Source: a virus. Taken from it: 39,178 bases of DNA. A program made the position numbers and the translations under genes. Location of the stretch: the IMG/VR virus record IMGVR_UViG_3300036790_000320, positions 1-39,178 of that record; one strand, given 5' to 3'. Under the pieces are notes generated by a model. It saw only the letters and a program-made list of their open reading frames with translations. It made no database searches and was not told the DNA's origin. Below are positions 13,316 to 28,531 of this stretch, one piece after another (within the stretch, counting starts at the first letter, position 1; each line of letters starts with the position of its first letter).

Positions 13316-13616
13316 AACAATAAAGTCCTTCTAGCTATTTCCCCGCTACGGTTTTAATGCCCTACGTCCTGTAGGTATCGGATTATTCCGCCATCACGCT
13401 AAATGCCTCGCTTTGTCCCGCGAGTCTGGAGTGGAACGTCCTTGTGCCAATCCTTGGCGTGTCCCACATTCCGACTTTAGGACAGAACTGGGACAAGGGA
13501 CAATTGTTTGGGTCTTTAAGTCCCGGCTTTATCCCTATATGGCCTTTGCGGGATAGTTAGGGCATGTTATATATTTAATAGGGTATTGAGGGACAACAAA
13601 GGCAAGGAAGGGACAA
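13316..13616. promoter_or_regulatory. Divergent control region with repeated GGGACA boxes
   Basis: This 301-base gap separates the minus-strand scaffold from the plus-strand HTH gene. GGGACA or its complement occurs at 13412-13419 (TTTGTCCC), 13459-13464, 13490-13496, 13497-13503, 13590-13596 and 13610-13616. The last two are exactly 20 bp apart, and the final one abuts the HTH start codon. Small inverted repeats CCTAC/GTAGG (13360-13374) and GCCAA/TTGGC (13446-13458) are also present. TATATT-type -10 candidates lie near 13567-13575 for the plus gene. The boxes are probably operators, perhaps for the adjacent HTH protein. Confidence 0.55.
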
Positions 13617-13817
13617 ATGTTAATAGACGGACAAAAATATATAACGGAGAAAGAAGTAGCCAGACATTATGAAAAGTCGGTGAAATGGGTAAAAAGAATG
13701 CGTTATGATAATCTTGATTTTCCACATTATAAATTGAATGGTAGGGTATTGTTTATACTTGAGCAGGTAGATGTTTGGGTAAAGAAACGATTGCGAGCAA
13801 TGGGAAAGATACGGTAA
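13617..13817 (+). CDS. Excisionase/AlpA-type small HTH protein
   Basis: A 66-residue basic protein following the HTH_17/excisionase pattern: YITEKEVARHYEKSVKWVKR is the helix-turn-helix, then FPHYKLNGRVLFILEQVDVW forms the wing and closing helix. AAGGAAGGG is the ribosome site. It is the only plus-strand gene in the late region, inserted between scaffold and a fibre-like gene and facing the GGGACA boxes. No integrase is present, so it is more likely a local transcription regulator than an excisionase. Confidence 0.7.
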   Translation: MLIDGQKYITEKEVARHYEKSVKWVKRMRYDNLDFPHYKLNGRVLFILEQVDVWVKKRLRAMGKIR

Positions 13818-16526: not shown

Positions 16527-16722
16527 TGTCGTTCTCCATACTTTCTAAGAAAAAATGCATCAATTTGGATATGTCATTGGTGTTTAATTCTGTTCCGTGA
16601 AATGGGGTTGTTGCAGGATGTTCTTCACATATTAAGGACAAAACACCCTTACTATTTCTAAAGGTTATCCCAGTTTGGCCTTTGCCAAAAAGATGCCCTA
16701 CCGTGACAATAACATTAGGCAT
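16462..16722 (-). CDS. 86-residue hypothetical protein after portal
   Basis: It starts inside the portal stop region (8-base overlap). The first 35 residues are beta-like (VIVTVGHLFGKGQTGITFRN), followed by an acidic Asn/Glu tail. The last 22 codons are shared, in another frame, with the 58-residue gene, which suggests that this tail is not strongly constrained. No family is recognised. Confidence 0.55.
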   Translation of the reverse strand: MPNVIVTVGHLFGKGQTGITFRNSKGVLSLICEEHPATTPFHGTELNTNDISKLMHFFLESMENDNEKGNVERFEECNTSGTQKDL

Positions 16723-18811
16723 GTGCGCGTTCTCCCTTTGGTTTTTGCGTGACCTTATGATGGGTCTCTATGGCTTCCCTAATGTGCCTATGATGCATGT
16801 CGCGTCCTTTTATTTTTAAGTCCATGTCTTTGGCATAACGTTCAGTCATTGCCTTTATTATTTGTACATTAGCAGCCTGCTTGCCAAGGAACAAATCAGC
16901 TTGGAGTTTTTTCTCTTCAAAATGTAATTTTGCATGTTCAAGCCTGTCTTTTTGGGCTGCTTCTTTTTTATGTTCTTCAAGTTTGGCAGCTTCTGTTTTT
17001 GCCTTCATCATTGCAGGGTCTTGTTGTTGGGCTTGCATGGCTTGTTGTTTTTCTTGCTGGTATTGTTGCAGCCATTCGTCAGTCAAGGCCTTAAGCTCTT
17101 CGACGCCTTTGCCTTCCATGTTGTCTAAGACGAAGTTTAGGCCTTTTTCTGCTATGAATTGTGCGAACAGTGGCGACATGCCCATCATTTCTTTGACCAT
17201 CATAATGGTGCGGGATTTCTGCACTTGGAAGCTAGCACCAGCTTTGAGTGATACATTCAAGGGATTGGTATCAAAATCCATAGATAGGCCGTCATCCTGG
17301 TTAATCTTGACGAATTGGCGGTTGCCATCATCATCCAATATAGGCAATGTACGCGGTGTTGCCATGTACTTTGGCATAAGGTCTACATAGATTTGTGCTA
17401 CTCGTTGGAAGCCTTGTAAGCAGCCTACAATGTAAGGCATCGCCGTGGCATTTGACTGGCTTGCAGCTTCTACAATGGCAATCCCTGATAGTTGGTTGTC
17501 ATTAATGCCAAGGCTTGCATCGTAAGAGCCTAGGACATTTTGGATAAGCTGATCTGCGCCTATAAAGGCCTTTTCTATTTCAGGTGGAGCGGGAGTGCGC
17601 TGGATTTCACGAATTGGGTTTGCGATTGGCATTTCAGGGTTTGATTCATGAACACTGTTATAGACGAGCACAGATTCTTTCTGGGTGTCTTTATACGCTT
17701 CCAGGAACTGCTCTTCTTTTGGTAAGGCTTCTTTTGCCACCATAAATTTATGCTGTACGGTGTTTTCTATCTCGTTTGCAAGAGAAATACCAGCATAGTT
17801 TTTAAGCCGTTGAGCACCCTTGGCGTGATATACATAAGGCCTTGTTACTTGCCTAATGTTGCCGTTCTTAGGCGTCTTAATCATTAGGGAATTACCATCT
17901 ACAAAGACCAAGGGTAGAAAAGAAAAGTCTGTTTCCTCATGCTCTATGACCTGGTTTTCAATCAGCCTATAACGGGAAATGCTATCAAGCATGGTCTTTC
18001 TGGGCTTGCCAATTGTCGTTGGTGGCACTGTAATGTCGTTCCATTCATCAACAAGCTTTCGATATTTCCTTGTGGTCATAACACCACGCCCGCGCACTTC
18101 TACAATCATTTCTTCACGACGGGTTTTTTCGTAATAATCTGCAACGACTATGATTTGGGAATTGTCGTTTTTATATGACCAATTAAAGCCTGCAAAATCA
18201 CGCCTAAAGTTAAGCGTATTGATGGCAATATCAGGGTATTCCTCTAAAAATTCTTCTTTGTCTTTAGGGAACAACTGGAAGCAGAACTTGCCGTCACCCT
18301 TATGGCTAAAGCGGGCTAGCTTGTCAAAGCCTGTAAGCGTAGGTTCACAGCGTTCTATCTTGATTTCCTGTTTCATGGACATTTGGTGTTCATAATCAGT
18401 GAATACCTTTAATGTGCTGAAACCACCAGAGAGCAAATCCTTATAGACCTCATAGCGGGTGTGTTCGTTGTTGTCGTCCATAAACACATGCTTTAGGTGC
18501 TGCTCTACGATTTTTATAGTGACAGGATCTACTTTTTCTTCATCTGAGGAATTTACTTTAATGTCTGGCTCTTGCTTGGAAAACTCGCCGAGTAGTCGGC
18601 TAATATATGCCTCCAGAATGTTGAATTCTAGCTGAGGCCTATTCATGGTTTCGAGTAACGTTATTTCATCAGGCGTGAGGCATGATTGAAACACAAAGCG
18701 CCTGAAATCGTTATATGTGTCGTAGTTTTCTTTGAAGTAATCATGGGCATTTCGTACAGATTTTTTAATTCGCGCCAAATCATCTTGATAGCGTTGTGCT
18801 ACTTCCTTCAT
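16715..18811 (-). CDS. Portal protein (P22 gp1-like)
   Basis: A 698-residue protein of full P22-portal length. The N-terminal NRPQLEFNILEAYISRLLGE and central GSYDASLGINDNQLSGIAIV and EAASQSNATAMPYIVGCLQG blocks are typical. Residues 590-660 are a long Gln/Lys/Glu coiled coil (the barrel that reaches into P22-type heads), ending in a basic tail. AAGGAGCTACAATA precedes the ATG. The portal is the dodecameric DNA gate at one capsid vertex and contacts terminase, coat and the gp4-like adaptor. Confidence 0.9.
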   Translation of the reverse strand: MKEVAQRYQDDLARIKKSVRNAHDYFKENYDTYNDFRRFVFQSCLTPDEITLLETMNRPQLEFNILEAYISRLLGEFSKQEPDIKVNSSDEEKVDPVTIKIVEQHLKHVFMDDNNEHTRYEVYKDLLSGGFSTLKVFTDYEHQMSMKQEIKIERCEPTLTGFDKLARFSHKGDGKFCFQLFPKDKEEFLEEYPDIAINTLNFRRDFAGFNWSYKNDNSQIIVVADYYEKTRREEMIVEVRGRGVMTTRKYRKLVDEWNDITVPPTTIGKPRKTMLDSISRYRLIENQVIEHEETDFSFLPLVFVDGNSLMIKTPKNGNIRQVTRPYVYHAKGAQRLKNYAGISLANEIENTVQHKFMVAKEALPKEEQFLEAYKDTQKESVLVYNSVHESNPEMPIANPIREIQRTPAPPEIEKAFIGADQLIQNVLGSYDASLGINDNQLSGIAIVEAASQSNATAMPYIVGCLQGFQRVAQIYVDLMPKYMATPRTLPILDDDGNRQFVKINQDDGLSMDFDTNPLNVSLKAGASFQVQKSRTIMMVKEMMGMSPLFAQFIAEKGLNFVLDNMEGKGVEELKALTDEWLQQYQQEKQQAMQAQQQDPAMMKAKTEAAKLEEHKKEAAQKDRLEHAKLHFEEKKLQADLFLGKQAANVQIIKAMTERYAKDMDLKIKGRDMHHRHIREAIETHHKVTQKPKGERAHA

Positions 18812-18898
18812 TATTGTAGCTCCTTGAATCAGAGAAATCCTTTCTCTGTTAATGCCTAATTGTATAACATTTAGTTTCTAGCGTGTATATGCGTTAGA

Positions 18899-19381
18899 TT
18901 AGAGCGTTTCTAACTTTTGATAAACATCATACATGGTAGAAGAAAAACCAGGTATTTTTTCATTTATCTTTTTTAAAATTCCATCAGGACTTTTTTCTAT
19001 TTGGATATCTTGTAACAATCTATATTGTTCTAAAACTACTGTACGTAAATTATTGACTTCATGGGAAAGGTTCGTCATTGGATTTCCAAGGATTTTATCT
19101 AAAAAATCAGACAACATAATAATGGTCTTTTCCATTGAGTTTATTTTTTCATTTATGCTTTTTAATGCATCAATTATTGGAAGTTCATTGGTTTTTTTGA
19201 ATGAATTTAAGTGTCTAGCAATTTTTTCACGCGACTTTTTCCCAAGATTAGCAATGCGAATCAAATCCAAATCATCTAAATCAATTAATTTTTCTACTGA
19301 ATCTATACCTTCAACTAATAAAATGTTGTTTATCCTAGTTGGCAATCCTAAATCCAAAATAGATGTAAAGTTTTCTATCAT
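18899..19381 (-). CDS. Free-standing RNA polymerase alpha-CTD-like protein
   Basis: A 160-residue protein. Residues 8-57 match the C-terminal domain of bacterial RNA polymerase alpha: LGLPTRINNILLVEGI, then a DLIRIANLGKKSREKI helix-hairpin-helix. R16, N19, N45, G47, K49 and S50 line up with the E. coli DNA-contact residues R265, N268, N294, G296, K298 and S299. Residues 65-160 are helical and probably coiled coil, so the protein may oligomerise. It sits between terminase large subunit and portal, 5 bases after the terminase stop. It probably binds UP-element-like A/T DNA or RNA polymerase partners. A packaging role is possible from position, but a normal TerS exists elsewhere. Confidence 0.8.
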   Translation of the reverse strand: MIENFTSILDLGLPTRINNILLVEGIDSVEKLIDLDDLDLIRIANLGKKSREKIARHLNSFKKTNELPIIDALKSINEKINSMEKTIIMLSDFLDKILGNPMTNLSHEVNNLRTVVLEQYRLLQDIQIEKSPDGILKKINEKIPGFSSTMYDVYQKLETL

Positions 19382-19385
19382 TATT

Positions 19386-20930
19386 CTATCTCATATATGC
19401 GCTAGATTTGAGCCTGTCAACCTTTCTGCTCTTTGACATTATGGTCTTTGCCATGCCTGAATAATCTACTTGGTTAATATGGGCTGAGATAATATTGCCT
19501 TCGATAAGGGCAATATTTACGCCGTCTGCTGCTGTGTCAGCGATATCATCCCAGCGGTGGGTTTCGTTTGCAGTAATCTTTGACATATGGTCAATGCACA
19601 ATTTAACATGTTTTCCGAACATTGGAAAAGATATGCGCCTTTCTGCGGCATAAGGTTGCATATCTAGGAATCGTTTTGTCTTGCTTCCTTGCGCACGTGT
19701 CCTGGGAATATCTATGACCTTGATAGTGCGTATTTCATCTAGAAGGCTTATTAAAGTACCACCTGTGGATTTCTTTTCAATGTGTACTGATTGTGGTGGC
19801 TTTTTGTAGCGCATACATTGTTGCCAAAAGTCGAGAAAGGTGGGCTTTAGGTCTTTTGGTTCTATGCGACATTCAAGCGTGTCAATCCAGTGCAAGCCGT
19901 ATTGGCCTGTTTTGATGCCGAACGATTCTATTTCGTAGATGCCAAAGAAGCTAAACGCCGTAGCATCGTTATAGTCTTTTGCCGTTTCTGCAGTATCACA
20001 GACGATAAAGCTATAAAGAACGTCTGGCTCGTCCTCTAGCATTACAAACCATTCTGGCTTAAAGAGTGCGCCGCCTGCAGGTATTGGGTTTTGCTGATAT
20101 TGTGAGGCGAAAACGTACGGGTCACGTTCTTGCTTTATTAGGAGCGATTCTTTTGTGTTGACCTCAGGATATAAGGCATTGCCAGCATCATCTAAGCTTT
20201 TTAATATAACCTCACGCCATTTATAACCATCTTGTCCAGATAATAGGTATGCTGCAAGGTCATCCTCATGTAATCGTTGACCAACAAAAATAAACGGCGT
20301 GTTGATGCCACGTCCTCTTTGCTGGATTGTTTCGCGATAGTTGTCGATAACAGACAACCTAATTGTGTCGCTATGAACTTCGTCTGGTTTATGTGCGTCG
20401 TCGATAATAAGAGCGCCTGAAAATCTGTCAAGTCCGGGCAATCCTGCATCTTGTCCAGTGACTGCCCCACTCGTACCAAAAGCCGCAACAGCACCACCAT
20501 CTGTTGTTTGAAAATACTCTCGGGCTTTGCTGTCATGTCGTATATTTACCTCAAATAGGAACTTGTAATGTGCAAGTTGCATAATGCGCTTGATTGTTTC
20601 TGTGTGCTTTGCTGCGAGTACTTTGGAATAAGATAAATAAAGGTAACGGGAATCACTGTATTTGGCTAGTGTCCATGCCACAAACATGGCCAGTAACGTT
20701 GATTTCCCTGAACCCGGGCTTACGTTTATCATTAGCCTATTGTCTGGGATTTCAAGACGTGCAGCACTTGTGAGTTCTCTACAGATTGTTATGTGGTGGG
20801 ATTCCCGTCCTATGGGTTTAGATACTATGAATGTACGGCCTGTAAGCAATGGATAAAAGAACTGTGTGAAGTCTAAAAGGCTTCCTCTTAGCTCTGATGC
20901 AAGTTCGTCCCTGTCTTGCGTGATGATCAT
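19386..20930 (-). CDS. terL: Terminase large subunit
   Basis: A 514-residue packaging motor. The Walker A motif SPGSGKST is at 71-78 and Walker B ALIIDD at 173-178. The DPYVFASQYQQNPIPAGG bridge is typical of TerL. The nuclease domain begins with IVCDTAET (D312) and has a second acidic cluster in RWDDIADTAADG near residue 470. It cuts and pumps concatemeric DNA through the portal. The start overlaps the previous stop as TAATG. Confidence 0.93.
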   Translation of the reverse strand: MIITQDRDELASELRGSLLDFTQFFYPLLTGRTFIVSKPIGRESHHITICRELTSAARLEIPDNRLMINVSPGSGKSTLLAMFVAWTLAKYSDSRYLYLSYSKVLAAKHTETIKRIMQLAHYKFLFEVNIRHDSKAREYFQTTDGGAVAAFGTSGAVTGQDAGLPGLDRFSGALIIDDAHKPDEVHSDTIRLSVIDNYRETIQQRGRGINTPFIFVGQRLHEDDLAAYLLSGQDGYKWREVILKSLDDAGNALYPEVNTKESLLIKQERDPYVFASQYQQNPIPAGGALFKPEWFVMLEDEPDVLYSFIVCDTAETAKDYNDATAFSFFGIYEIESFGIKTGQYGLHWIDTLECRIEPKDLKPTFLDFWQQCMRYKKPPQSVHIEKKSTGGTLISLLDEIRTIKVIDIPRTRAQGSKTKRFLDMQPYAAERRISFPMFGKHVKLCIDHMSKITANETHRWDDIADTAADGVNIALIEGNIISAHINQVDYSGMAKTIMSKSRKVDRLKSSAYMR

Positions 20931-23218: not shown

Positions 23219-23289
23219 AAAATATGGCTCAGGGCTTAAAAGTACTATTTACACCTTTAAATACGATTAGTCGCACTTGTCATAATAGG

Positions 23290-23371
23290 GGGCAATGGAT
23301 GGAATCGAACCACCGACTACCAGCTCAGCTTTACCTGATCGCCGCCCTCTAACCAGCTGAGGTACATTGCC
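23290..23371 (-). tRNA. tRNA-like gene, degenerate, possibly Leu(CAG)
   Basis: Minus-strand GGCAATG pairs with CATTGCC as a 7-bp acceptor. TA, then a CCTC/GAGG D stem with an AGCTGGTTA loop, and a GGTGG-TTCGATT-CCATC T arm all fit a tRNA. The middle contains ATCAGGT, which reads as an anticodon loop with CAG and G37, as in tRNA-Leu. However, the flanking CGGCG and AAAGC do not form the anticodon stem, and the extra region is irregular. CCA is not encoded. It is either a decayed tRNA or a tRNA mimic. Confidence 0.5.
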
Positions 23372-24155: not shown

Positions 24156-24241
24156 TGGTGGAGCAAGTTGGAGTCGAACCAACACGGGCTAGCCGACCTC
24201 TGGGTTACAGCCAGGTACCCTTCCTATTGGGTGTTTGCTCC
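24156..24241 (-). tRNA. tRNA-Tyr (GTA), CCA encoded
   Basis: The acceptor GGAGCAA/TTGCTCC is perfect, followed by A-CCA in the DNA. The D stem is ACCC/GGGT. The anticodon loop CTGTAAC is held by CCTGG/CCAGA (one mismatch at 27-43). A class II extra arm (GGTCGGCTAGCC), as expected for bacterial tRNA-Tyr, and a GTTGG-TTCGACT-CCAAC T arm complete it. Length is 86 bases. It lies within the small-gene transcript, so it must be cut out by RNases. It probably supplements Tyr decoding in late expression. Confidence 0.92.
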
Positions 24242-27780: not shown

Positions 27781-28266
27781 TTAATAATCCTTTTTGTTTT
27801 TTTCGTCTAGCTTGTTCTTGCGTTCAATAGAATCTTGTAATAGCTCAGGATTGGAAATAATAGTTTCTGTTTTGTCAGCAAAGCGCTTAGGTGCAAGCTT
27901 TGATGCTTGCCATTTAATGGCATCCATTTTTACTCGAAGCATAGGGACATCTGTTCTTTGAAAACCAGTATCAGGATCGACATATTTATGTGGCTCATTA
28001 GCAAGAGCTAGCATGTAATCTACTTGGACTTCAGCCTGTTGCTCTTTGGCGCTCATGTATTTGTCACGAAAGCCTGGATATTTTCTCATCCAAATGAATA
28101 TATTTGCTCTTTCTGGCCAATGAGGGTTTGCAGCACAAAGATGCTCTAAACCTTCATTAGAAGAAGCAATAGCATTACAAATCTCTTCAGCCAATTCCTC
28201 AGTATAAAGAGAAGGCCTGCCAGTAGGCTTGGGGTTTGGATTTCGAATGCGCTTCTTAGCAACCAT
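27781..28266 (-). CDS. terS: Terminase small subunit (Sf6-type)
   Basis: A 161-residue protein. The start follows GAGGCTCCA; a 17-codon in-frame extension has no good site. GRPSLYTEELAEEICNAIAS, then an HTH (GLEHLCAANPHWPERANIFI), YPGFRDKYMSAKEQQAEVQV and IKWQASKLAPKRFADKTE are typical of Sf6/P22-group small terminases. These bind pac DNA and form a ring that feeds TerL. It lies about 7 kb from TerL, with many small genes between, which is unusual. Confidence 0.85.
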   Translation of the reverse strand: MVAKKRIRNPNPKPTGRPSLYTEELAEEICNAIASSNEGLEHLCAANPHWPERANIFIWMRKYPGFRDKYMSAKEQQAEVQVDYMLALANEPHKYVDPDTGFQRTDVPMLRVKMDAIKWQASKLAPKRFADKTETIISNPELLQDSIERKNKLDEKNKKDY

Positions 28267-28273
28267 TGGAGCC

Positions 28274-28531
28274 TCACTTCTTTTGATATTCATTATCAAA
28301 TATCTTAACAGCTTCATCCCGTGAAATCAGGGGGTTCAATTCCATAATGTCTTGGATGGCTTTTTTATAGCTCTGAGAACGCCTATCTAGTGTTGCAATA
28401 CTAGGTGGTGCTTCGAAGTCCGGTTTTGCTTCTAAGAGCCTTCCTTGTTCGTCACAATTGTAGCAAGTCATCATGACCATACCGTTGCCCATAAACTTTT
28501 TACTGCCACCGCATCTATAACAAACGTTCAT
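28274..28531 (-). CDS. Zinc-finger protein heading the minus operon
   Basis: An 85-residue protein. CYRCGGSKKFMGNGMVMMTC, then YNCDEQGRLLEAK, is a CxxC ... CxxC ribbon like the DnaJ-type finger. The C-terminal helix (AIQDIMELNPLISRDEAVKI) may contact a partner. It is first in the minus-strand run, next to a divergent promoter region; TATGAT near 28568-28573 is a possible -10. Confidence 0.65.
   Translation of the reverse strand: MNVCYRCGGSKKFMGNGMVMMTCYNCDEQGRLLEAKPDFEAPPSIATLDRRSQSYKKAIQDIMELNPLISRDEAVKIFDNEYQKK

Follow-up and report, generated by a model that had tools for sequence, protein, structure and literature searches.

The C-terminal domain of the bacterial RNA polymerase alpha subunit (alpha-CTD, Pfam PF03118) is a main docking point for bacterial activators, and phages without a polymerase of their own redirect the host enzyme using small proteins. 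Small alpha-CTD proteins, carrying a PF03118 domain (28-78 bits) or the matching fold, are already known in other phages, for example in Bacillus phage Goe8 (QDP42789, 78 bits), Microbacterium phage Atraxi (gp24, 42.7 bits), Ruegeria phage V16 (AWY09459, 41.4 bits) and Mycobacterium phage Marley1013 (gp51, 28.2 bits), and in BFVD the fold is matched by several entries under the name 'RNA polymerase, alpha subunit, C-terminal'. Among the papers searched, there was no study of a phage-borne alpha-CTD protein. The 160-residue protein described here resembles these proteins in its size and domain. It differs from the four compared, which come from unrelated phages and gene contexts, in possessing a C-terminal module of which they have no copy, and we found no other phage protein with its combined architecture of alpha-CTD, probable coiled coil and C-terminal module.

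The gene lies in a virus record of 39,178 bases (IMGVR_UViG_3300036790_000320), which we read as a single window. It occupies positions 18899..19381 of the minus strand, a strand that the first-pass annotation had not given. As that annotation had proposed, it stands in the packaging and head operon between terL (19386..20930, minus strand; phrog_38, 280 bits) and a P22-type portal gene (16715..18811, minus strand; PF16510, P22_portal, 315 bits). The present 3' end of terL abuts it directly, its ATG lying 4 nt past the terL stop codon. Homologues in eight other viral records place this reading frame beyond chance. Further upstream, the phage encodes a separate Sf6-type small terminase, TerS (27781..28317, minus strand; PF20901, 88.8 bits; phrog_1482, 98.6 bits), and tRNA genes for Pro(AGG) and Tyr(GTA) lie in the interval between TerS and TerL, at 23288-23371 and 24156-24241 of the same strand. 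When genome contigs were scanned for terL, the single match was a MAG contig labelled Bacteroidetes, which is possibly a mis-binned phage and so assigns no host.

The N-terminal domain is a genuine RNA polymerase alpha-CTD. The similarity previously noted for residues 8-57 extends over residues 5-59 (19205..19369, minus strand), where the Pfam RNA_pol_A_CTD model matches with an E-value of 2e-10 and 40.7 bits against a cut-off of 23.8. The generic helix-hairpin-helix (HHH) model HHH_5 gives 16.9 bits, below its threshold of 27, and a purely generic HHH domain is thereby ruled out. The best eight NCBIfam models are all rpoA, each aligned over the CTD part alone; for instance, TIGR02027 is matched over positions 236-292 of 298, with 30.1 bits against a cut-off of 227.8. 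The N-terminal dimerisation and assembly domain of alpha was not found in the 160-residue protein by these models, in agreement with the earlier view that the rest of alpha is missing. Alpha-CTDs also head the list in a phmmer search against PDB chains. An AlphaFold2 model built on nine homologues (pLDDT 84) places helices at residues 8-11, 15-23, 29-34, 37-41, 48-130, 132-142 and 146-159. The predicted fold lies within 0.8-0.9 Å of solved alpha-CTDs (VIA Z 11.3), the top Foldseek match in the PDB being the Streptomyces coelicolor alpha-CTD (rmsd 0.8 Å over 55 columns, target TM 0.92). The N-terminal HHH domains of RAD51 and Dmc1 likewise score Z of about 10, so the fold alone is indecisive and it is the sequence that decides. 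In the alignment, R16, N19, N45, G47, K49 and S50 fall on E. coli R265, N268, N294, G296, K298 and S299, and the window protein thus keeps all six of the DNA-contact residues named by the first-pass annotation. The acidic 287-type surface is kept in part, with D36 D37 L38 D39 at the positions of T285 E286 V287 E288.

With its profile, fold and six contact residues in common with bacterial alpha, the protein departs from it in overall design: it has neither the alpha N-terminal domain nor the linker, the CTD stands at the N-terminus, and helix 4 is predicted to continue into a heptad-bearing helix of about 80 residues. The two heptad-repeat segments of this helix (residues 62-100 and 102-130; 18992..19198, minus strand) show an excess of hydrophobic residues at the a and d positions over shuffles (p=0.006 and p=0.04, respectively), with the register interrupted at about P101. 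These patterns make a coiled coil likely, as had been suggested for the helical tail, and multimerisation plausible, although a heptad pattern by itself would be insufficient to establish oligomers. The remainder of the protein forms a conserved C-terminal module at residues 104-160 (18902..19072, minus strand), with the consensus NELRT..LEQYRLLQ..SPDGIL..INEKIPGF..YDLYKKL and fourteen invariant columns. Mean pairwise identity among the seven full-length members is 55% over these last 57 residues, against 34% in the alpha-CTD and 16% in the linker. From these seven sequences, the alpha-CTD appears to be the changing end of the protein and the module its constant end. No family was found for the module in Pfam, its profile hits in the PDB (PPAR-gamma, E 0.4 or worse) are probably due to chance, and Foldseek with the module alone gave no match below E 7.

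To place the gene among related phages, we gathered IMG/VR loci by terL and portal scans (59 and 80 loci, respectively). These gave 71 distinct terL-portal junctions; terL and portal stand no more than 100 bp apart in 47 of them and more than 250 bp apart in 18. Full-length homologues occur at four of these related junctions (L012, L020, L045 and L053) besides that of the window; the gene that the first-pass annotation had proposed to look for between terL and portal in related phages is therefore found there in some, and is missing from most. At the same junction, L017 encodes a short protein that matches alpha-CTD more strongly (52.4 bits), and a divergent homologue is present in L046. Altogether, the family was found in eight IMG/VR contigs besides the window, and the reading frame is intact in all nine records. 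The scans were seeded by short peptide patterns, which divergent members may escape; no homologues of the 160-residue protein were found in annotated phages or in bacterial genome contigs. At the terL-portal site, the homologues begin within or just past the end of terL and are for this reason probably translationally coupled to it.

The alpha-CTD varies considerably within this family. The PF03118 cut-off is reached by L012 (28.9 bits), L020 (37.3 bits) and L017, with L045, L107, L053, L131 and L046 falling under it in the protein scan; L012 also meets the HHH_5 cut-off (30.0 bits). Among nine members, R265 is kept in six, N268 and S299 in four each, and N294 and K298 in three each. None of the eight aligned relatives keeps all six contacts, and the complete set is present only in the window protein, a further departure from bacterial alpha-CTD. 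In both second-site members compared, L107 and L131, the R265 position is occupied by Glu and N268 is also lost, suggesting that some members may no longer bind DNA in the manner of an alpha-CTD.

This AT-rich gene is an accessory insertion. Its GC content is 27.7%, compared with 43.4% for terL and 42.6% for the portal gene, and only 0.1% of 483-nt windows match so low a value; the homologues are likewise AT-rich. The nearest relative by terL (88%) and portal (92%), L002, has no such gene at its terL-portal junction. Behind the inserted gene we detected a displaced remnant of an earlier terL 3' end (18878..18914, minus strand), which overlaps the stop codon of the accessory gene and aligns both with the 3' end that terL has now and with that of L002, where the site is empty (p<=0.0005, mononucleotide shuffles). 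Similar displaced terL ends lie behind the insert in L012 and L053, and in L015 and L016 the last ~18 codons of a lost homologue remain behind another gene. The similarity of the C-terminal module is out of step with that of terL: L107 has 62% identity in terL and 72% (41/57) in the module, and L020 has 78% and 48% (27/56), respectively. This points to horizontal exchange. L053 carries two stacked inserts behind terL (1511-1940): first the alpha-CTD gene, which has a leader copy to itself, and after it a gene of 96 aa along with a second copy of the terL end. This arrangement suggests repeated entry of cassettes at the terL 3' end. The family thus suggests replacement of the terL 3' end as an entry route for small genes into packaging operons. 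In L036 (terL ~3039) and L044 (terL ~1302), terL itself is split by an HNH-like insert, after which the terL C-terminus resumes in frame in an intein-like manner.

A second accessory site harbors the homologues of L107/L108 and L131/L132. They are encoded on the other strand from the head genes, antisense to the late genes, and are flanked by the scaffold gene and a downstream virion gene. There they overlap the end of an AlpA/HTH_17-like gene, which they directly follow in L107 and L131; in the window, this HTH gene (13617..13817, plus strand; PF12728, 27.2 bits) stands without an alpha-CTD gene behind it. Elsewhere this position is taken by HNH nucleases, a lysozyme-like gene or coiled-coil genes. 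We dropped a strict partnership between the two genes, as the AlpA/HTH_17-like gene is near-universal in the group with or without an alpha-CTD gene, which makes their co-occurrence uninformative. Promoter and terminator scans at this site performed no better than shuffles. Five of the 13 GGGACAA motifs of the window lie at 13413-13616, in the ~200 bp that precede the antisense HTH_17 gene, and could be operator sites.

In L045, the terL-portal insert with the alpha-CTD gene has a second product, a protein with sigma-70 region 4 (PF04545, 60 bits). Matches to this domain exceeded the cut-off in three of 51 records, one of which also has a full-length alpha-CTD homologue. Phage proteins of this kind (L045, G013, G036; phrog_351) likewise represent a part of the host's promoter-recognition machinery carried by a phage, in one case within the insert that holds the alpha-CTD gene, but they differ from the alpha-CTD gene in having another domain, no homology to it and a presence limited to these three records. 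Those of L045 (10827-11414), L147 and L149 have an XRE-like part at the N-terminus and sigma-70 region 4 (about 60-66 bits) at the C-terminus; none is present in the window. These proteins are candidate regulators of late transcription.

We tentatively regard the product of this gene as an optional, probably oligomeric DNA-binding modulator of transcription with a conserved docking tail, that is, an accessory phage protein of the moron type. The predicted long helix would form a dimer or higher oligomer presenting at least two alpha-CTDs to DNA; for the window member, whose contacts are intact, the target would be the AT-rich minor groove. The C-terminal module would dock on a single constant partner, either a phage protein or part of the host transcription machinery, and tethering of this partner to DNA may modulate transcription from phage or host promoters during infection. 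That the gene is missing from most relatives suggests that it is optional for phage growth. A link to transcription is favored because domains of the alpha-CTD type chiefly bind DNA or transcription proteins, and by the sigma-70 region 4 protein in the insert of L045 and the second-site copies behind a regulator-like gene. The sigma association is a single case, which counts against the transcription reading. The conservation profile of module, alpha-CTD and linker fits a constant docking end joined to a variable end that would read DNA or another target.

The first-pass annotation, whose description of the domain, tail and operon context holds up, had also offered occupancy of UP elements, DNA bridging and packaging-site recognition as roles. 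Its two refuting outcomes, a model lacking the alpha-CTD fold and similarity confined to generic HHH, were both checked and neither occurred. As a function of the family as a whole, conserved UP-element recognition is unlikely given the contacts lost in all eight relatives, and a family-wide UP-element reader is unsupported. A protein recognizing pac, or otherwise helping TerS, TerL or the portal, might be expected from a gene that starts 4 nt past terL, precedes portal and is probably translationally coupled at this site in other phages. We nevertheless consider a packaging factor highly improbable, for a separate Sf6-type TerS is encoded by the phage, the gene is missing in most relatives that share this terL and portal, and the second-site homologues are antisense to late genes. 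P22- and Sf6-type small terminases are DNA-binding proteins of the same late operon, and TerS profiles of Pfam and PHROG did not match the 160-residue protein; TerS function or pac recognition was rejected as its main role. Improbable too, if slightly less so, is a decaying or neutral passenger of a mobile cassette with no selected function for the phage: remnants such as those of L015 and L016 do exist, but the frame is unbroken in the window and all eight other records, and the C-terminal module is strongly conserved across phages whose terL differs by up to ~40%.

Two further explanations seem to us unlikely, and about equally so. Oligomeric HHH domains could coat or bridge phage or host DNA with no specific contact to RNA polymerase, as befits a class of common non-specific DNA binders, contact residues that differ among homologues and a predicted long helix with heptads; however, the sequence is specific to alpha-CTD rather than generic HHH, and bridging would have no need of a conserved docking module. 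That module is also left unexplained by a decoy model, in which the free alpha-CTD would titrate host activators, sigma or UP elements; interference with the host or with competitors could also take the form of superinfection exclusion or counter-defence. An interference role of this sort would suit the AT-rich gene, its fast divergence, the partly retained acidic surface and an accessory site where HNH nucleases and further unrelated small genes also occur, but the PADLOC search returned no meaningful defence family, its matches being weak and alpha-CTD/HHH-like or coiled-coil in kind (at most 14.9 bits for the 160-residue protein).

Returning to modulation of transcription with a docking tail, a bolder version of this proposal, which we hold to be rather doubtful, is that the detached, oligomerised alpha-CTD supplies host RNA polymerase in trans with an additional specificity unit. 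The coiled coil would offer several alpha-CTDs to upstream promoter DNA, the tail would dock either on the polymerase or on a regulator of the phage (possibly, in L045, the sigma-region-4 protein of the same insert), and promoter-reading modules would be swapped as cassettes. An alpha-CTD with a docking tail and without the rest of alpha could show how a detached promoter-recognition module works, and such a protein could become a tool for steering transcription.

Finally, the portal leader contains a hairpin, CAGAGAAA-GGA-TTTCTCTG (18830-18848, minus strand), which has a conserved TACAATT on one side and the ribosome-binding site of portal on the other. RNAalifold returned no structure for this leader, though a direct pair count across 24 phages supports the hairpin: 92.6% of cells pair, and three of the seven pairs change on both sides. 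The hairpin may act as a signal in the translation or processing of portal.
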